A stretch of 64,000 bases of DNA, taken from positions 1,240,001 through 1,304,000 of the forward strand of contig NZ_CP009505.1 in assembly GCF_000970045.1 (NCBI RefSeq), in the 5' to 3' direction. Each line of letters opens with the position of its first letter. Within the stretch, counting starts at the first letter, position 1. Under the pieces are notes generated by a model. That model was not told the DNA's origin. It saw nothing but the letters and a program-made list of their open reading frames with translations, and made no database searches. The position numbers and the translations under genes were made by a program. Positions 43,898 through 54,416 of this stretch are shown piece by piece. The stretch is from Methanosarcina sp. MTP4. Lineage in GTDB: Archaea > Halobacteriota > Methanosarcinia > Methanosarcinales > Methanosarcinaceae.

Positions 43898-45103
43898 ATG
43901 AAATTTTTTGCAAAATACCGTACTTTTTTAACTCTGTTTTTAATTTTAAGCTTCTTGCTGCCAGGCTGCCTCTTTGCAGGTTGTATCGGGGAAAGGAGTC
44001 CTCCGGCCCCCGAGGAAATAGAACTTCTTATCCAGAATCTGAAAAACCCGGACGGTCGGGACTTTTATGAATCCAGAGAGCGGCTGATCGATGCGGGAAG
44101 CCTTGCTGTTGATCCTCTCATCCTGGCCCTGGAGGAAGATGATAATGATTTCAGGTTTGAAGTCCTTGATGTCCTCGCTGCCATAGGGGACGAGGGGGCT
44201 GTTGACCCTCTTGTCCTGATCGTGAAAGATAAGGACGAAGACCTTGAGCTAAGGGCTCATGCGCTGGGAACTCTCGGTGAAATCGCGGCTACCACGGGAA
44301 ACGAAAGGGCTATGGATTCCTTCACTCAGCTTATGGAAGATGAAGATGTAGAACTGCACCTCAAGTTAACTGCGCTGGAGACCCTCGGGCTAAATGTGCT
44401 GGAGGTGTCTGTGGGTAGTGGAGATTCTTCGGTAGAAGAAAGGGTAGTGGAACTCCTGGTCCGGAGCCTTCGGGCTGAAAATGAAACAGTTCGCAGTGTG
44501 GCTGCAATTTATCTTACTGAGGGTGGTGAAAAAGCCGTAGAACCCCTTATACAGGTCCTGAATTCGGATGAAAGCGAGTCTGCAAGAACCGCTGCTGCAG
44601 GTTCCCTTGGAAGTATCGGTGGAGACAGGGCTTTCGAGGTTCTCGTAAACGCCCTGGAAACGGATGAAAGCGAATCTGTCCGAGGTATTGCAATCCATTC
44701 CCTGGGAAGTGAGTATAATGAATTCAACGAAAGAGCAGTGGAACCCCTGGGAAATGCCCTTAGATACGATGAAAGTGCAAAAGTCCGGAAAACCGCTGCA
44801 GAAACCCTTGCTAACTTCGGAAACGAGGAAGCAGTCGACTTCCTCACAGAAACTCTGGAAGATGAAAACGAAGCCCTGGAAGTCCGGGAAGCCTCCGTCT
44901 TTTCTCTTCAGGCTATCTATTATAATTTTGGAGGGGAAAAAGCAATCGACACCCTTAGAAGGAACAGGGACTGTGAAAATGAGACCCTGAGGCAGACCAT
45001 TGAAGACGTCCTTTCTGAAATTGAGACAGGAGAGATCCCGAAACCGCTGGAGGAAGGGAACGAACCGCTAGAAGAAGTTGAGGAACCACTTGAAGAATTC
45101 TGA
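43898..45103 (+). CDS. HEAT/PBS-lyase repeat lipoprotein
   Basis: A 401-residue exported protein. The signal sequence (TLFLILSFLLPGC) has a lipobox at LPGC, with a second Cys at FAGC. Residues about 45-375 are HEAT-like repeats of the PBS-lyase type (AVDPLILALEEDDNDFRFEVLDVLAAIGDEG and similar), forming an alpha-solenoid for protein binding. The C-terminus is repeated EPLEEV/PLEEF. It is unrelated in detail to the HEAT protein at 50594. No enzymatic residues are seen. Confidence 0.82.
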   Translation: MKFFAKYRTFLTLFLILSFLLPGCLFAGCIGERSPPAPEEIELLIQNLKNPDGRDFYESRERLIDAGSLAVDPLILALEEDDNDFRFEVLDVLAAIGDEGAVDPLVLIVKDKDEDLELRAHALGTLGEIAATTGNERAMDSFTQLMEDEDVELHLKLTALETLGLNVLEVSVGSGDSSVEERVVELLVRSLRAENETVRSVAAIYLTEGGEKAVEPLIQVLNSDESESARTAAAGSLGSIGGDRAFEVLVNALETDESESVRGIAIHSLGSEYNEFNERAVEPLGNALRYDESAKVRKTAAETLANFGNEEAVDFLTETLEDENEALEVREASVFSLQAIYYNFGGEKAIDTLRRNRDCENETLRQTIEDVLSEIETGEIPKPLEEGNEPLEEVEEPLEEF

Positions 45104-45178: not shown

Positions 45179-46266
45179 GAGCGGATTAAAATAAATATAT
45201 TTTTATTTTTCACAGCAGAGTTACGCATCGGGAGTATGCTGTCCTTTTCCCTCACCCGAGTTCCGCTTCGGGATCACAGAAAATCGGAGATTTTCTGGGA
45301 GTTGCACTGTAAGTGCAACAGCACGGTGTCCTTTTCACTCACCCGAATTGCGCCTCGGGAGTACGCGGTCCTTTTCGCTCACTTCGTTCACTCAAGAGGA
45401 CGATTTCAGGTGTTTCTTCATGATTTGTGAGGTGGAGGCCGGGCTTTTTTCAGAGGAGGTGTAGAAAGTGAATGGGGGCGGCTTTTTCTCGATTTTAGGA
45501 TTTCGTTCGGCGGACTAAAATAACTTCTTTTTTATTTTTCGCCGACGGGCTGCTACTGCTCATCCCCCACGAACCGTTTGAACCACCCGAATTCCGCTTC
45601 GGGAGCACGGTGTCCTTCCCGAATTCCGCTTCGAGAGCACGGTGTCCTTTTCCCTCACTTCGTTCGCTCAAGAGGACTGTTTCAGGTGGATTTTCATGAT
45701 TTTTGAGGCGGAGGCCGAGCTTTTTTCAGAGGAGGAGTAGAAAGTGGAGGGGCGGCTTTTTCTTGATCTGAGGATCACGTTCGGCGGACTAAAATAACTT
45801 TATTTTTATTTTTCACCCGGGGCTCCTCCCTCTCATCCCCCACGAACCGTTTGTAACACCCGAGTTCCGCTTCGGGAGCACGGTGTCCTTTTCCCTCACT
45901 TCGCTCGCTCAAGAGGACGATTTTAGGTGAGTTTTCATGATTTTTTAGGCGGAGGCCGGGCTTTTTTCAGAGGAGGATTGGGTGGCAGAAGGGGCGGCCT
46001 TTTCTCGATCTGAGGATCACGTTTGGCGGATTAAAATAACTGTATTTTTATTTTTCGCCGGCGGGCTGCTACCGCTCATCCCCCACGAACCGTTTGCAGT
46101 CTGAAGTTCTTCCTCGCCCCTCTCCTCCGAGTTTCATTTTCTAACAGATTGATGATGCGGAGGCCGGGCTTTTTTCAGAGGATGAGGAGTAGAAGGCCGG
46201 AGGGGCGGCTTTTCTCTATCCGAGGATCACGTTCGGCGGATTAAAATAACTTCTTTTTTATTTTTT
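45179..46266. repeat. REP-family tandem array, five units
   Basis: Units begin with GGCGGA(T/C)TAAAATAAC at 45179, 45509, 45783, 46025 and 46235, with spacings of 330, 274, 242 and 210 bp. Each unit contains a T-rich start, CTCATCCCCCACGAACCG, TTCCGCTTCGGGAGCACGG, CACTTCGTTCGCTCAAGAGG, GGCGGAGGCCGGGCTTTTTT and GGGGCGGCTTTTTCTCGAT. The first unit holds the 47-bp double-hairpin insert (45274-45320). The second has an internal duplication of about 32 bp. No conserved open frame runs through the units. Confidence 0.9.
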
Positions 46267-46491
46267 TTCAAGGGGAGAGCAGTAAGCTGTATGTCAGATA
46301 CTTGGATTATTTCAAAGAGGTCTAAGGTTTTGCGTTTGGTGGGAAGTGCAGGGAGTATGAGGTTTAAGGGTTTGCGTAGGTTTCAGGAGATGGGTTGGTA
46401 GAGAATTATTTTGTGTGAGATTGTGTTTTAATTTTCTAAAGGCTTAGCTATTTGAAAGTCTTTTTATTGTTTGGAATATTATTCCTTTTTA
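46267..46491. promoter_or_regulatory. Spacer between REP array and pentapeptide gene
   Basis: No gene. From about 46400 the sequence becomes clearly more AT-rich and stays so to about 50600. The promoter of the next gene must lie at the right end. Confidence 0.35.
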
Positions 46492-48261
46492 ATGGTTACA
46501 TGTAAATACATCTATTGGGTAGGTAGTGAAAATTACACATTAATTGATTTTCACTGCCCTTTTGAAGCAGTGGAGGGGGATGAACTTTGTTACTGGCATC
46601 AGGCGAAAGATGGAAAGAAACCCTCTCAGGAGCAGTTAGATGAATTGAAAAAAATTGATTTTGATTTTGTGGGTATTTACTTGAAAAGAGCTGAACTGAA
46701 AAATGTTAGTTTAGATGGTGTCAAGTTACCACTGGCAAATTTTACTGAAGCCAAGTTGAATGAAATATCTCTAGAATGCGCTGAACTTTCTAATTCAAAA
46801 TTTGAGGATGCTGATTTAACAGAGGCTAATTTGCAGAGATCAAAGTTGGAATCAGTTGACTTCGAAGGGGCAATTCTACGTTTTGCTAATTTGACTGGTG
46901 CAACATTAACAAAGGCTAATCTTACTTGTGCAAATCTAAATCATTCTAAGGTAAGTAACGCAGATTTGAGCTATGCTACGATGGAAGGAATTAAGTTAAT
47001 CGAGATGACACTGAGTGGATCTAAATTAGATAATGTTGTACTAATAAACGAATGGCTTGATCATGTTGATTTGAAAGATGCAGATTTAAGTTATTCTACC
47101 CTTTGTGGAACACAGTTTAATAAATGTAATCTTCAGAATGCTAATTTGAGTCACACGGATTTACGAGGCGCCGAGCTTTTAGAAGTAAATCTGCAGAATT
47201 CTGATTTGAGTGATAGTCTTCTACAAGGAGCGAATTTATCTCTTTCAAATTTGAGAGGATCTGATTTAAGCCGAAGTAACTTACAAGGCACATTTTTAGG
47301 GCTAACTCTTTTTAATTCTGACTCATGTTTAAACAATGTTTCTTTAGCTTATTCTAATATTCACCGTTCGTACATAGATGAATCAAGAACCTTGAGAGAT
47401 TGTGTTTTTTTTGAGAACGGTGTTATGGACATGAAGGAAATTAATGAATTTGTTGCAGATAATTTGGCCAAAAAACTTATACTCGATGCTGAAGCCATTA
47501 GAAAATCTGATTTTAAATTATTTCACGACTTTGAAATGAAAGGTCTTTTGAGATATCCAGGATCTTTCCCTGATAATTCTGTAATTTTTTATGATGATCT
47601 GACTGACAGTCCTATTAAGAAGCGGATTGATAACATAGTATTCAAAAATACGATACTTGGAAAATCACGAGAGTTAGAAAATTTTGTTCCGACCTTTTAT
47701 GTATCTAGGAAATATCTTTATAGAGGAAATAAAAAGGATCTTTATAATGTTTCGCATGAAGTATATAACAAGTTGTATAATTTTTATTCCTCAAGTGGAG
47801 ATACTCTCCGAGCAAGGCAAGTACATTATCGCCGAGGTGAGGTTTATAGAAAGCTTTTGCTTGCCAGAGGTGGTTACAAAAATAAATTAAGAGCACTGGC
47901 TTTTGACGGTTTCATTCTAAAAACTTTGGCAGGATACGGAGATAAAATATGGAATCCTATTAAGTGGTCATTCTTCATTATTGGCTCATTTTCCATTTTG
48001 TTTTGGTTAACAAATGGTGTTTCTATTGAGGAAAGAAGTATTCACTGGTATGATTATTTGTACTTGAGCGTTACAGCTTTTACTGGTCTTGGTTTCTCGA
48101 ATGTACAACCTAATATCTCTGAACTTGTGACGTTTATATTTCCATTGGTTGGAACGATGACGATTTCTATTCCTCAGATACTTGTAATGGCTGAGTCTGT
48201 CTTAGGCTTCACAATGGTGTCATTGATCATTTTTGTTATTACTTATCAGATTTCGAGATGA
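46492..48261 (+). CDS. Pentapeptide-repeat protein fused to a two-helix ion channel
   Basis: A 589-residue protein (ATG 46492; an in-frame TTG at 46471 is less likely). Residues 1-40 hold a Cys/His cluster (CKYIYWVG...CPFEA...CYWH) that could bind zinc. Residues about 60-300 are pentapeptide repeats of the A(D/N)LxxA type (NADLSYATMEG, NANLSHTDLRGAELL), a right-handed beta-helix. A mixed linker (300-480) follows. The C-terminal 110 residues are a two-TM channel: TM1 SFFIIGSFSILFWLTNG, pore loop YLSVTAFTGLGFSNVQP, and TM2 ESVLGFTMVSLIIFVITYQ. The filter TGLGF is related to but not identical with the TVGYG of K+ channels. A sensor plus a channel is a plausible membrane effector; this role is inferred. 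Confidence 0.85.
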   Translation: MVTCKYIYWVGSENYTLIDFHCPFEAVEGDELCYWHQAKDGKKPSQEQLDELKKIDFDFVGIYLKRAELKNVSLDGVKLPLANFTEAKLNEISLECAELSNSKFEDADLTEANLQRSKLESVDFEGAILRFANLTGATLTKANLTCANLNHSKVSNADLSYATMEGIKLIEMTLSGSKLDNVVLINEWLDHVDLKDADLSYSTLCGTQFNKCNLQNANLSHTDLRGAELLEVNLQNSDLSDSLLQGANLSLSNLRGSDLSRSNLQGTFLGLTLFNSDSCLNNVSLAYSNIHRSYIDESRTLRDCVFFENGVMDMKEINEFVADNLAKKLILDAEAIRKSDFKLFHDFEMKGLLRYPGSFPDNSVIFYDDLTDSPIKKRIDNIVFKNTILGKSRELENFVPTFYVSRKYLYRGNKKDLYNVSHEVYNKLYNFYSSSGDTLRARQVHYRRGEVYRKLLLARGGYKNKLRALAFDGFILKTLAGYGDKIWNPIKWSFFIIGSFSILFWLTNGVSIEERSIHWYDYLYLSVTAFTGLGFSNVQPNISELVTFIFPLVGTMTISIPQILVMAESVLGFTMVSLIIFVITYQISR

Positions 48262-48301: not shown

Positions 48302-48524
48302 TGCCCTGTTTTCTAGTAAGCATTAATACTCCAAGGATCTTGAATTCAGCAAATCCTCTAAAAACCGCCCAACAACTCTCCAAAAAATACTCTTTGACGA
48401 CGGGCGTGATTTTGGAAGAAGGGTAGAAGATGGGAGATGAGGCTCTTTTTGAGTTTGGGAATGAAAACCGGGAACATTATAAAAAAATAGATGGAATATG
48501 CCTGTTCATCCTAATAATTTGAAA

Positions 48525-50522
48525 TCAATATTTATTCTCAAACTCAAAGATGCTGTTGATCACTTTTTTGCTATTTTTGTCCAGATTCTTATCTAATTTC
48601 CTCCAGTTCTCAATTTTCTTTTTGAAATTAGCGCAAACTCTTATTTTTTCTCTCTTGATCTCTTTCTTTTTTTCATCGCTAACATCGGAATAGACTACAA
48701 CCCAGGGAATTATCTCTTTTTTAGAGTCATTTAAAGCTTTTATTTTGTTTTTAACTTGTTTTGCAACTTTTTGTGAACTGTGTATAGCTACCTTACATTC
48801 GAATATGTAGACATATTCTTCATTTTCTAAATAAACATCAATCTGTTCATTTTTTATTTTTACATCAGAATATATCATGTCTCCTGCTTTCGACTTGTTT
48901 TCAACTAGCCAGTTGAAAAATAAGTACTCAAAGAATTTTCCTTTTGTATCACCTATAAACCTATCCTCTTGGGTTTTTATAGATTGAATAATGTACTTAC
49001 TAAGCTTGTATGAGGATTCTGGAATTGATTTGCTACCTTTGATTCCGGTTTTATTGAAAGTGAATTTGTCATTTTCATGCAAAAGTTTGGAATAAATATC
49101 ATTATTAGAGTTGTGAGAAGCACTTTTATCAGTTAGGTATTCGATAAAAATATTCTTATCCAAAATAATTTCTTTTACTTTTAAGGACCCCTCTTCCACA
49201 AATTCTTTTATGAACATCTCAGCTTCGCGGTGCAATGAGCCCCCAAAACCAGAGTAATCTGTTGCACAATCTAAAAAGATCAACCACCCAGAATAATCTG
49301 AAATACCAGTGTTTCCAAATGCCTCAATTAAAATTCCATAACTATAATCAAAACCTTTTACTCCCCCTACTGGATGCTTAAATCTCGAAACTAATACTTC
49401 GTCATCGTTTCCAAGATATCTTTTCCTTCTTATGTTACCGATCAATGTGGAAGTGAATGCAGGAACTCCATTGAATACTGGAGTTTTACTATTGTCTAAT
49501 ACATCTACTCCATACCACAGGAAATAAGAATCAAGTTTTTTGTGTGCTGATTCTTTGTCTGTTTTAGTGAGGTATTCCGGGTCTTTGAGTGTATGTTTTG
49601 TTAGATAATTTTCGATTACATTTTTGTCGAAGTTTTCACAAAATAACATCGAGTCAAACTGAATTTTGAATTTAAATTCTTTTTTCAGTTCATCTTCAAG
49701 TGGTTCAATTATTTCCCTTTTAATTATCCCAAAAAATGTATCTAAATAATCCCATTTGTCAATTTTAGATCTTAGAGGGTTTAAATCCAGCCATGGAAAT
49801 TCATCCTCGGCTTCTTGAGGATATATTTCATGTGCTCTATGTAAATTTCTGATTGATAATTCCTGAAATTTCTGTTCCCCAAGCAGAACATACCACAAAT
49901 ATTGCAATGTGTATGTGTACCCTATATATGACTTTTCAGCTTTTTCTTCTGTTATATCTGGCTTCAAAATCGGAACCATATAAGCTAATGGAACTCCATG
50001 TTGAAGATCGTTCAAGTACATATGTGTTTTGAAAACTGTCGCTGAATTTAAGGCAAAATTTTTGGGAAGCTCATTGGCAGGAACTATGTTACTTTCATAA
50101 ATTTTCTCAAACACTTTTAATAAGTCCTCAATATCATTGATAGAGCCAGTTATTTCTTCCCAGCTGGTCGAGTTTCTTATTCTCTTTGTCTTCTCCCAGA
50201 CATTTTTCATGAAAATTGTTTTTTCGCATGTATTCGGTATATCGTAAATATCAATTCCAACGAACCTTGCCCTTACAAAAGTAAAATCTTCTTCTACATC
50301 TAAGGAATTCTCCAAAATGATTGTATCAATGAGTCCTCTAAGACAAGTATTTAGAAAGAAAATGTATCCATCCAGTAATTCGTTATATTTCTCTAAACCG
50401 TGATATTCTTTCAACCACTTTTCGAAAGAAGTTATATCAGTTACAATATTCAATATGTTACAGAATGAGCAAAAATCATCAGCATTTCGGCTTTCAAATT
50501 CCATATTTTCTTCATTTACCAC
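48525..50522 (-). CDS. Large protein with C-terminal PD-(D/E)XK nuclease-like domain
   Basis: A 665-residue protein of no named family. Residues 1-500 are alpha/beta with no recognised domain. Residues about 525-640 show the order expected for a PD-(D/E)XK nuclease: GKFFEYLFFNWL (Glu, about 533), EQIDVYLENEEYVYIFECKV (Asp about 562, E-x-K about 575-577), then a helix and IIPWVVVYSDV. The start is GTG at 50522; GGTGTAA lies ahead, and the same context precedes the HEAT gene. An ATG at 50504 is an alternative. It follows the HEAT gene by 71 bp in the same direction, so they are very likely cotranscribed. Base composition is AT-rich against the flanking genes, which suggests acquisition. A defence or DNA-cutting role is inferred only. 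Confidence 0.75.
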   Translation of the reverse strand: MVNEENMEFESRNADDFCSFCNILNIVTDITSFEKWLKEYHGLEKYNELLDGYIFFLNTCLRGLIDTIILENSLDVEEDFTFVRARFVGIDIYDIPNTCEKTIFMKNVWEKTKRIRNSTSWEEITGSINDIEDLLKVFEKIYESNIVPANELPKNFALNSATVFKTHMYLNDLQHGVPLAYMVPILKPDITEEKAEKSYIGYTYTLQYLWYVLLGEQKFQELSIRNLHRAHEIYPQEAEDEFPWLDLNPLRSKIDKWDYLDTFFGIIKREIIEPLEDELKKEFKFKIQFDSMLFCENFDKNVIENYLTKHTLKDPEYLTKTDKESAHKKLDSYFLWYGVDVLDNSKTPVFNGVPAFTSTLIGNIRRKRYLGNDDEVLVSRFKHPVGGVKGFDYSYGILIEAFGNTGISDYSGWLIFLDCATDYSGFGGSLHREAEMFIKEFVEEGSLKVKEIILDKNIFIEYLTDKSASHNSNNDIYSKLLHENDKFTFNKTGIKGSKSIPESSYKLSKYIIQSIKTQEDRFIGDTKGKFFEYLFFNWLVENKSKAGDMIYSDVKIKNEQIDVYLENEEYVYIFECKVAIHSSQKVAKQVKNKIKALNDSKKEIIPWVVVYSDVSDEKKKEIKREKIRVCANFKKKIENWRKLDKNLDKNSKKVINSIFEFENKY

Positions 50523-50593
50523 TGACTTACACCAATGATTCTAAATAACCGAAGGTTTAAAATCATTTTCATAAAATCTTGTAAGTAAGAATT

Positions 50594-53500
50594 TTAATTA
50601 GTTAACTTTTCAAGCACATCTTTTCTTCCAATTTTTAAAAGATAATTTTTAACTTTCTCAGACAAACGGGTTGGGAGTTGAGACAATTTCTCTATACTTT
50701 TTCCTTTAATTCTCTCCAAATCCTCTTTCAATTCTGAATAAGAAATCTCCTGTAGAGGTATTGTAACTACATGTTCAGCACTCAACCCCGGCAATTGAAT
50801 CCCTGATGAAATGACAAATTCTTCGCTGATTCCGGGTTTTGAGATGATTATTAATTCATCTACTTTTGAATTAACTTCAATAACTAATTTTTCAAGATTG
50901 TTTAGTTTATCTGATACCATTTTTAACGTAGGTATCGATCCAATAAAAGTAGAGGTTATTGTGAATAGATTTACGAGATCTCTTTCAGCTAGGGCTTTAT
51001 CTATCTCATTATGAATGAATTCATTTTCCGGGATCTGGGGTATAATTAGTTTTAAAGCACGACAAAGATTTTTTGCGTAGAAGGTCATTTCCTCTTGGTT
51101 GCTTATTTCCCATCTTTGAACTTCTTCTTTGACAGCACATGCAACTTTTTTGACTTGTCCCTTCGAAATCTGGCATGCGGTATCAGCTTTTTGCTGGATT
51201 TCTTCGAGGAGGGATTTTAAGTTTCTATCGAGAATAGGAAGCCCTTTTCTCATCACTATTGTTGCAGATGGTGCTTTTTCTTCGGTATTTTTCATCAACT
51301 CTGCGGCCTGTTCGCAGTATTTCCTGTAAAAATTAAGCTCTCCTTTCTTGGCCTCTAAGTCCATATTTTCAAGGTTCTGGACTTCTTTTAATGCATTGGA
51401 AAGATTTTCAACCGCTTCAAAGAGTAATCTCTTATTTTCTGATCTACCAATCTTGCTTTTTGCCTCTGAAAGGTATTTCTCAACTTCATCTTTTGCCTCT
51501 TGTTTTTTAGCAGAAATTATTGTGTAAAATGAACGGTAAAATGGGAAGCAAAATTTAGATGGGTTATACCAAGTGGGCTCTTTAGCTGCCTTTTCAAAGA
51601 ATTCAATCGCTGTTTTCAGTAATTCTAAGTATGATTCTTCACTCCCTGATTGAGATGCTTTATATATCGAAATTCTTCCCAGAGAGTGATATGCATTGAC
51701 TCGCACAAAGCTGTCTTCGTTTGAAGTCAGTCCGTGTAAATCTTGGCACGCCTGTTCTTTGTCCGGCACATCTCTAAAAACAGTTCCAAGTAAAGCTGTC
51801 GCTTCCAGTCGCACATCTTTATCTTCATCTGAAGTCAATCTGTGTACATCTTGCCATGCCTGTTGTTTATCCGGCACATCTCTAAAAACAGTTCCAATTG
51901 CTTCTGCCGCTTCCCTTCGCACCCTGCTGTTTTTATCTGAAGTCAATCTGTGTACATCTTGCCACGCCTGTTGTTTATCCGGCAAGTCTCTAAAAACCCT
52001 TCGAAGTGCTTCTGCCGCTTCCCTTCGCACCCTGCTGTTTTTATCTGAAGTCAATCTGTGTACATCTTGCCACGCCTGTTGTTTATCCGGCAAGTCTCTA
52101 AAAACCCTTCGAAGTGCTTCTGCCGCTTCCCTTCGCACCCTGCTGTTTTTATCTGAAGTCAATCTGTGTACATCTTGCCACGCCTGTTGTTTATCTTGGG
52201 CATCTTTAATATTATTCATAAGTGCATTTAATGCTCTCCATCGCACATCTTTATCTTCATCTGAAGTCAATCTGTGTACATCTTGCCACGCCTGTTGTTT
52301 ATCTTGGACATCTTTAATATTATCAATAAGTGCATTTAGTGCTCCCCATCGCACCCTGCTGTTTTTATCTGAAGTCAATCTGTGTACATCTTGCCATGCC
52401 TGTTCTTTGTCCGGCACATCTTTAAAAAAAATTCCAAGTGAAGCTGTCGCTTCCAGTCGCAAATCTCTTTTTTTATCTGGATATTCAAAACCACTTAAAA
52501 GTGCTATTCCCACGTGCCATAGAACACTTTTGTCTTTATCTGAAGCCATTCTGTGTACATCTTGCCACACCTGTTCTTTGTCCGGCACATCTTTAAAAAT
52601 AGTTCTAATTGCTCCTGCCGCTTCTATTCGCACCTTTCTGTTTTTATCTGAAGTCAGCCTGTGTACATCTTGCCACGCCTGTTCTTTGTCCGGCACATCT
52701 TTAAAAATAGTTCTAATTGCTCCTGCCGCTTCTATTCGCACCTTTCTGTTTTTATCTGAAGTCAGCCTGTGTACATCTTGCCACGCCTGTTCTTTGTCCG
52801 GCACATCTTTAAAAATAGTTCTAATTGCTCCTGCCGCTTCCCTTCGCACCCCGCTGTTTTCGTCTGAAGTCAGCCTGTGTACATCTTGCCACGCCTGTTC
52901 TTTGTCCGGCACATCTTTAAAAATAGTTCTAATTGCTCCTGCCGCTTCCCTTCGCACCCTGCTGTTTTTATCTGAAGTCAATCTGTGTACATCTTGCCAC
53001 GCTTGTTGTTTATCCGGCACGTCTCTAAAAATAGTTCTAATTGCTCCTGCCGCTTCACATCGCACCCCGCTGTTTTCATCTGAAGTCAGTCTGTGTACAT
53101 CTTGCCACGCCTGTTCCTTGTCCGGCACATATTTAAAAACAGTTCCAAGTAAAGCTGTCGCTTGCAGTCGCAAATCTCTTTTTTTATCTGGATATTCAAG
53201 ACCACTTAAAAGTGCTATTCTCACGTGCCATAGAACACCTCTGTCTTTATATGAAGTCAGCCTGTGTACATCTTGCCATGCCTGTTGTTTATCCGGCACA
53301 TCTCTAAAAACAGTTCCAATTGCTTCTGCCGCTTCCCTTCGCACATCTTCATCTTCATCTGAAGTCAATCTGTGTACATCTTGCCACGCCTGTTGTTTAT
53401 CCGGCACATCTTTAAAAATAGTTCTAATTGCTCCTGCCGCTTCCCTTCGCACATCTTCATCTTCATCTGAAGTCAATCTGTGTACATCTTGCCACGCCTG

Positions 53501-54043
53501 TTGTTTATCCGGCACATCTTTAAAAATAGTTCTAATTGCTCCTGCCGCTTCCCTTCGCACCCTGCTGTTTTTATCTGAAGTCAATCTGTGTACATCTTGC
53601 CACGCCTGTTGTTTATCCGGCACATCTTTTAAAATAGTTCTAATTGCTCCTGCCGCTTCACATCGCACCCCGCTGTTTTCATCTGAAGTCAGTCTGTGTA
53701 CATCTTGCCACGCCTGTTCTTTGTCCGGCACATATTTAAAAACAGTTCGAAGTGCTTTTACTGCTCTCCATCGCACCTTTCTGTTTTCATCTGAAGTCAG
53801 TCTGTGTACATCTTGCCATGCCTGTTCTTTGTCCGGCAAATATTTAAAAACAATTCGAGGTGCTTTTACTGCTCTCCATCGCACCTTTCTTTTTTTATCT
53901 AAAGTCGGTCTGTATAAATCTTTCCACGCATTTTTTTTGTCATAAAAATCTCCAAAACTACTAGATAGTTGATCCACTGCCTTCATGCGTTCTTTTGGAT
54001 CAGAATCATTACATTTTTTGTGAATTTCTTCCTGATTAACCAA
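50594..54043 (-). CDS. Giant HEAT-like solenoid protein with about twenty 36-residue repeats
   Basis: A 1149-residue cytoplasmic protein. Residues about 40-780 are about twenty repeats of 36 residues with the pattern AWQDVHRLTSDxxxxVRxEA then xxAIxTxFKDVPDKxQ, two of them lengthened by about 21 residues (ALLSGxEYPDKKRDLRL). They should form a HEAT-type solenoid. The C-terminal 370 residues are helical and charged, without recognised domain (KQEAKDEVEKYLSEAKSKI, NNLEKLVIEVNSKVDELI). The start codon is TTG (54043). The repeats are nearly identical in DNA, and some neighbours are identical in protein, so copy number probably varies. It is the first gene of a pair with the nuclease-like protein; a recognition-scaffold role is inferred. 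Confidence 0.8.
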   Translation of the reverse strand: MVNQEEIHKKCNDSDPKERMKAVDQLSSSFGDFYDKKNAWKDLYRPTLDKKRKVRWRAVKAPRIVFKYLPDKEQAWQDVHRLTSDENRKVRWRAVKALRTVFKYVPDKEQAWQDVHRLTSDENSGVRCEAAGAIRTILKDVPDKQQAWQDVHRLTSDKNSRVRREAAGAIRTIFKDVPDKQQAWQDVHRLTSDEDEDVRREAAGAIRTIFKDVPDKQQAWQDVHRLTSDEDEDVRREAAEAIGTVFRDVPDKQQAWQDVHRLTSYKDRGVLWHVRIALLSGLEYPDKKRDLRLQATALLGTVFKYVPDKEQAWQDVHRLTSDENSGVRCEAAGAIRTIFRDVPDKQQAWQDVHRLTSDKNSRVRREAAGAIRTIFKDVPDKEQAWQDVHRLTSDENSGVRREAAGAIRTIFKDVPDKEQAWQDVHRLTSDKNRKVRIEAAGAIRTIFKDVPDKEQAWQDVHRLTSDKNRKVRIEAAGAIRTIFKDVPDKEQVWQDVHRMASDKDKSVLWHVGIALLSGFEYPDKKRDLRLEATASLGIFFKDVPDKEQAWQDVHRLTSDKNSRVRWGALNALIDNIKDVQDKQQAWQDVHRLTSDEDKDVRWRALNALMNNIKDAQDKQQAWQDVHRLTSDKNSRVRREAAEALRRVFRDLPDKQQAWQDVHRLTSDKNSRVRREAAEALRRVFRDLPDKQQAWQDVHRLTSDKNSRVRREAAEAIGTVFRDVPDKQQAWQDVHRLTSDEDKDVRLEATALLGTVFRDVPDKEQACQDLHGLTSNEDSFVRVNAYHSLGRISIYKASQSGSEESYLELLKTAIEFFEKAAKEPTWYNPSKFCFPFYRSFYTIISAKKQEAKDEVEKYLSEAKSKIGRSENKRLLFEAVENLSNALKEVQNLENMDLEAKKGELNFYRKYCEQAAELMKNTEEKAPSATIVMRKGLPILDRNLKSLLEEIQQKADTACQISKGQVKKVACAVKEEVQRWEISNQEEMTFYAKNLCRALKLIIPQIPENEFIHNEIDKALAERDLVNLFTITSTFIGSIPTLKMVSDKLNNLEKLVIEVNSKVDELIIISKPGISEEFVISSGIQLPGLSAEHVVTIPLQEISYSELKEDLERIKGKSIEKLSQLPTRLSEKVKNYLLKIGRKDVLEKLTN
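51720..53900. repeat. 108-bp tandem repeat inside the HEAT gene
   Basis: About twenty 108-bp units (36 codons), with top-strand landmarks CTGTGTACATCTTGCCACGC and TTTATCCGGCACATC. Units near 51900-52150 and 52600-52900 are almost identical to their neighbours. The repeat also keeps a long open frame on the opposite strand. Confidence 0.92.
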
Positions 54044-54416
54044 TTCCCTACACCATGGCCTTCTAACACTTCAAAATTAATAAATCATTCTTATTTTTCC
54101 CCTGTCCTATCTTCTCTCACTCCCCTTCTCCATAATCTCCCCAAGAGCCTACCTGAACTTCCGGGCAGCTGCATTGACATATAATCCCCATCCCATTAAC
54201 CACAACCTTATCCCCTTTCCCGACAACGGCATTTCGAAAAAATCTATAAAAATCCTCCAAAAAACCGGCACCTCCCCTCTCCAAAAAATCAATTCGAAAA
54301 AACGACCCCAATAAAAACCAATCTCTCGCCCGGCTTCTCCCCTCAACCGAACGAAAACCCCACCGCCGGAAATCTCCCCTCAAACAATCTCCGGCGGGGG
54401 CCAAATTACCATTCGA
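54044..54416. other. Spacer between gyrA and the HEAT gene
   Basis: A hairpin CCGCCGGA / TCCGGCGG at 54363-54397 is placed to terminate gyrA. A 95-codon frame at 54117-54404 crosses it and has biased, unsupported composition. Probably no gene; it must hold the promoter of the HEAT gene. Confidence 0.45.

Follow-up and report, generated by a model that had tools for sequence, protein, structure and literature searches.

Card1, Can2 and Cdn1, all CARF–PD-(D/E)XK effectors, consist of an N-terminal regulatory module and a C-terminal PD-(D/E)XK nuclease. In the defence protein DSR2, sensor and effector lie on one chain, and the effector is a Sir2 NADase rather than a nuclease. Among engineered binders, alphaRep proteins are built of repeats of 31 aa. 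Their variable positions 18, 19, 22, 23 and 26 lie on the binding face (PMC3754942). Fungal NLRs have highly conserved internal repeats in which a few positions are under diversifying selection, and PNP is one of the NLR effector domains (PMC4986451); a further source lists PNP as a defence domain degrading (d)ATP (PMC10952713). Archaeal innate immunity is poorly charted.

We analysed a stretch of 64,000 nucleotides from Methanosarcina sp. MTP4 (the window), in which the gene of a HEAT-repeat protein precedes that of a putative nuclease. With modest confidence, we take the HEAT gene to encode a receptor and its neighbour a nuclease effector, both belonging to a modular, horizontally moving archaeal conflict repertoire of antiviral type. 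The HEAT solenoid would bind an invader molecule, most likely via a hypervariable concave surface; its helical tail would relay or assemble the signal; and the neighbouring protein would, via its own N-terminal module, unleash the PD-(D/E)XK nuclease on nucleic acid, to antiviral effect. The defence role of the pair is what we infer from the comparisons below.

Layout and history of the gene pair

Both predicted ORFs were found where they had been placed, the HEAT gene first on the minus strand, then the gap, then the nuclease gene; the gyrase genes lie upstream of the pair.

48525..50522, minus strand: gene of the predicted sensor-nuclease protein, 665 aa, GTG start
50523..50593, minus strand: spacer between the two genes, 71 bp, conserved in locus L005
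50594..54043, minus strand: gene of the HEAT-repeat protein, 1149 aa, TTG start
~48388..54247, no strand: insert with just these two genes, relative to the empty site downstream of gyrA in genome G035 (L075); ends approximate

In G035, the sequence downstream of gyrA is unbroken at the point where the window is split (flank similarity 75–87%), and the interval is therefore an insert. As had been claimed, the pair is AT-rich (GC 31–43% versus 51–56% in gyrA and gyrB), in line with a horizontally moved insert. A long plus-strand ORF antisense to the HEAT gene (51696–53945) was rejected as a by-product of the repeats. Elsewhere in the window, the gene beside the insert (46471–48261) encodes a pentapeptide-repeat protein whose C-terminal segment resembles an ion channel (weak Ion_trans_2 match, E 0.28); the interval 45340–46265 has dispersed repeat units, and units like them lie near gyrA in the genomes of three relatives; and 43898–45103 encodes another HEAT-repeat protein, this one with an N-terminus like that of a lipoprotein.

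In Methanosarcina sp. STD2_179 (L005), a nuclease gene occupies the same site and is preceded by the last 12 HEAT codons and a stop, the 3′ ends of the two genomes comparing as ISRKDLIEKLTD* against IGRKDVLEKLTN*. This remnant implies that the arrangement once existed outside the window genome; either the HEAT gene was deleted in L005, or only its end was transferred. The nuclease dS of 0.42 is far below that of gyrA (1.18) and gyrB (1.38), and hence a horizontal transfer of the gene later than the split of the hosts is probable. With a dN/dS of about 0.18, the nuclease is under purifying selection.

The HEAT protein ends in a helical tail that was followed across genomes:

50594..51703, minus strand: C-terminal helical tail (aa 781–1149), conserved in the HEAT-tail family
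50594..51220, minus strand: part of the tail (aa 942–1149), also fused to the N-terminal module of the nuclease family in L050 and L057

A look at some 55 HEAT-tail genes showed a gene of this nuclease family directly after one of them, that of the window, and adjacency of the two families is confined to one genome and one remnant. Nine genomes with a nuclease had no detected HEAT-tail gene (G018, G098, G110, G150, G202, G261, G295, G301 and G350), and the nuclease ORF is intact in the first six of these. Since the families are mostly found apart, they do not form an obligate pair; an obligate two-gene defence system was rejected because adjacency is not conserved across genomes, and the fixed module of the original prediction falls with it. 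Separate occurrence in conserved housekeeping contexts had been named as what would speak against that prediction: the separate occurrence is there, the conserved housekeeping roles are not.

The same distribution favours a close but, in our judgement, less likely rival, in which two independent defence genes came to adjoin by chance in a hot spot, the sensor-nuclease being self-contained and the HEAT receptor unrelated to it. The L005 nuclease is intact and under purifying selection with no linked HEAT gene, and the argG locus has HEAT genes in several species and a nuclease in G403. Chance is, however, at odds with an insert made up of just two co-directional genes separated by 71 bp, with the same spacing to the HEAT 3′ remnant in L005, and with the fusion of the HEAT tail to the nuclease-family N-terminal module in two distant genomes. 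In these fusions, L050 and L057, tail homology reached E values of about 1e-23 and 1e-10 (0 of 1000 shuffled control sequences were reported), and neither genome holds a second tail copy. Linkage, remnant and fusions suggest, with some uncertainty, that the HEAT and nuclease products are physically coupled; the nuclease can probably also act without a linked HEAT gene.

The predicted nuclease and its family

The receptor–effector reading assigns the 665-aa protein the effector part.

49113..50522, minus strand: N-terminal module (aa 1–470), uncharacterised fold, with different C-terminal domains in relatives
48543..48962, minus strand: PD-(D/E)XK nuclease domain (aa 521–660)
48792..48839, minus strand: predicted catalytic D562 and E575-x-K577

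Residues E532, D562, E575, K577 and Q589 do not vary among the Methanosarcina and Haloarcula relatives compared. An AlphaFold2 model from 12 sequences (pLDDT 77; both structure models were built on 10–12 sequences) has an alpha-beta-beta-beta-alpha-beta core (H502–543, E549–556, E559–566, E570–577, H583–596, E603–610), and the site residues sit on its expected strands and helix. Foldseek searches of the PDB gave a probability of 1.00 to Cdn1, Card1, Can2, EndoMS and MspJI, with E values of only 0.008–0.1 and alignments spanning 103–165 of the 665 residues. The PADLOC profile CARF_PDDEXK matched the nuclease half only (6e-7, profile positions 199–356 of 361), and a Pfam search of the window protein did not find the nuclease domain. 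The modelled C-terminal domain has the PD-(D/E)XK fold, whose absence had been named as a reason to abandon the prediction, and the conserved residues agree with those proposed from their spacing. The protein is a putative nuclease, acting on DNA or RNA.

In the model, the N-terminal 470 aa form a largely helical module together with an alpha/beta part; they had no match in the PDB with Foldseek, nor in family-profile searches of PDB sequences and Pfam. In L051, this module carries a SLFN_AlbA_2 (Schlafen) domain (1.8e-19). The family was found in 13 of 393 archaeal genomes in the phylum sample and 6 of 186 in the order sample; G004, G301 and others carry broken copies. Neither the nuclease nor the HEAT-tail family had relatives in viral contigs, phages held no relatives of the nuclease, and plasmid matches came only from Haloarcula (nuclease) and Methanomethylovorans (HEAT tail). 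By HMM names, with no control set, L057 has type I restriction-modification subunits on its flanks, and L048, L049, L057 and L058 have neighbours of methyltransferase, DUF262-type (GmrSD-like), HerA-like or OLD-like kind; no defence-type neighbours were evident around other nuclease genes, for example those of L006 and L052. Restriction-modification neighbours and effector swapping in relatives lend backing to the defence-like reading.

Two further loci were recorded. At L054:7853–8556, inside a methyltransferase/corrinoid-protein gene cluster, a nuclease-gene remnant keeps both ends and has lost its middle; G018 has an intact copy at this site. At the argG locus, where other species have HEAT-tail genes, a 1066-aa NACHT protein is encoded near a nuclease gene (L047:11819–15019).

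The presence of EndoMS and other repair nucleases among the fold matches, together with the gyrase genes upstream, would suit a non-defence role, namely an EndoMS-like nuclease of DNA repair or nucleic-acid processing with a HEAT scaffold. We consider such a role improbable, given the rarity and patchiness of the family (13/393), the degraded copies in G004 and G301, the horizontal transfer, the Schlafen/HEAT-tail and PNP swaps, and the diversifying repeats described next.

Variable positions of the HEAT repeats

51650..53935, minus strand: array of 20 HEAT repeats (aa 37–798), unit positions 16, 17, 20, 21 and 24 hypervariable, pN>pS

The array has 20 repeat anchors, spaced by 36 aa in 17 of 19 intervals and by 57 aa in two, as expected for the solenoid of about twenty 36-residue repeats originally described. 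It matches Pfam HEAT_2 (E=2.7e-57) and is encoded by 108-bp tandem arrays with units 83–93% alike; mean pairwise identity over 16 repeats is 0.75, some adjacent units being closer. The N-terminus L(V/I)DQEEIH is shared across paralogues.

Variation was assessed at the helix-B positions 16, 17, 20, 21 and 24, where the repeats of other HEAT-tail proteins vary most. This set was a second choice, made after an out-of-sample test of nine positions in which the window ratio of 1.19 was not significant (bootstrap 0.84–1.98). At the five positions, pN was 0.431 versus a pS of 0.153 in the window repeats (bootstrap pN−pS 0.16–0.35), figures that are indicative, the repeats of one protein being mutually non-independent. 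Random five-position sets were as extreme in 32 of 20000 draws, and pN falls to 0.017 in helix A, which is nearly constant. Across 20 proteins, pN exceeded pS at these positions in 16, and over the pooled remaining repeat in none. The window repeats thereby resemble high-internal-conservation repeat receptors in having diversifying selection at few positions. Diversifying variation in the HEAT repeats is therefore indicated, and the proposed recognition-type scaffold gains support from positions picked in other proteins. The five positions are spaced exactly like positions 18, 19, 22, 23 and 26 of the engineered HEAT-like alphaRep binders, which are an artificial scaffold without an effector, unlike the window protein (PMC3754942).

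That the array changes fast through neutral unequal exchange and plays no part in recognition, the nuclease being a decaying mobile remnant, we regard as very improbable: unequal exchange is expected to homogenise repeats and broken copies of the nuclease family occur in other genomes, but non-silent changes cluster at five positions set from other proteins, helix A hardly varies, and the nuclease has a dN/dS of about 0.18.

The HEAT-tail family and known systems

HEAT-tail genes were found in 66 of 186 genomes in the order sample and 43 of 393 archaeal genomes in the phylum sample, with up to seven matches per genome. At the three loci tested (L120, L127 and L157), the HEAT-tail protein carries a C-terminal PNP_UDP_1 domain (E about 1e-20); that of L122 has the same C-terminal sequence, and several others have strongly hydrophobic end segments. 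Genes directly downstream of other HEAT-tail genes encode DUF429, an SF1 helicase with DUF559, DUF5677, PRTase-CE or Exo_endo_phos proteins; for many others the next gene is a housekeeping gene or lies on the opposite strand, and many stand alone among housekeeping genes. A fold search with the tail gave no confident match. By homology, C-terminal domains are swapped in both families, and the tail domain is common to the two.

Within the window's own genome, a second HEAT locus at argG has, after a HEAT-tail gene, the gene of a 1484-aa SF1 helicase with C-terminal DUF559 (L060:2756–7210); the helicase matches the PADLOC MkoC/MkoA profiles (6e-63). Also in this genome, a 244-aa ORF of HEAT N-terminus and tail (L137:4509–5243) is apparently a collapsed HEAT-tail gene.

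We tentatively propose, as a possibility held below even chances, that Methanosarcina and relatives have a multi-copy, NLR-like immune receptor repertoire without an NTPase, in which hypervariable HEAT solenoids share a tail that links recognition to interchangeable effectors. Some of these effectors would be fused to the receptor (PNP, membrane segment), others encoded directly downstream (sensor-nuclease, DUF429, DUF559 helicase, DUF5677, PRTase-CE).

The PADLOC and Pfam libraries searched contain no named system that corresponds to either family, and a literature search on archaeal HEAT defence returned nothing matching. Like Card1, Can2 and Cdn1, which are among the best fold matches of its C-terminal domain, the window protein has an N-terminal regulatory module followed by a PD-(D/E)XK nuclease; those effectors have CARF, whereas the window's N-terminal 470 aa match no CARF, and the likeness covers the nuclease half. 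Membership of Card1/Can2 was rejected, as the PADLOC match comprised only that half, with no CARF domain matched. DSR2 is similarly a large defence protein coupled to a toxic enzyme, and HEAT repeats are discussed for it (PMC11263360).

In effector-associated-domain (EAD) conflict systems, as here, one small domain occurs on different partners and effectors are exchangeable (PMC7159879). There, the same domain is on core and effector (PMC7159879), whereas the window nuclease has no HEAT tail, and the pair has no MoxR, vWA or GTPase core. The genomes with the fused form, G115 and G483, likewise contain one tail copy each, rather than one on a core and one on an effector.

Fungal NLRs have PNP_UDP among their effector domains, as do some HEAT-tail proteins, but combine WD, ANK or TPR repeats with an NTPase, whereas the window protein has HEAT repeats and no NTPase (PMC4986451); no NACHT or NB-ARC domain, as in STAND/NLR proteins, was found in the HEAT or nuclease protein. 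The threshold used for fungal NLR repeats is >85% identity over at least 100 aa, above the window mean of 0.75 (PMC4986451). If our reading is true, it becomes testable which ligand the variable positions recognise, and archaea would have a receptor family whose binding surface can be read, which has several paralogues in a genome and whose effectors can be exchanged, together with a nuclease family bearing an uncharacterised regulatory module, and the receptors would be comparable to the repeat receptors of fungi and animals.
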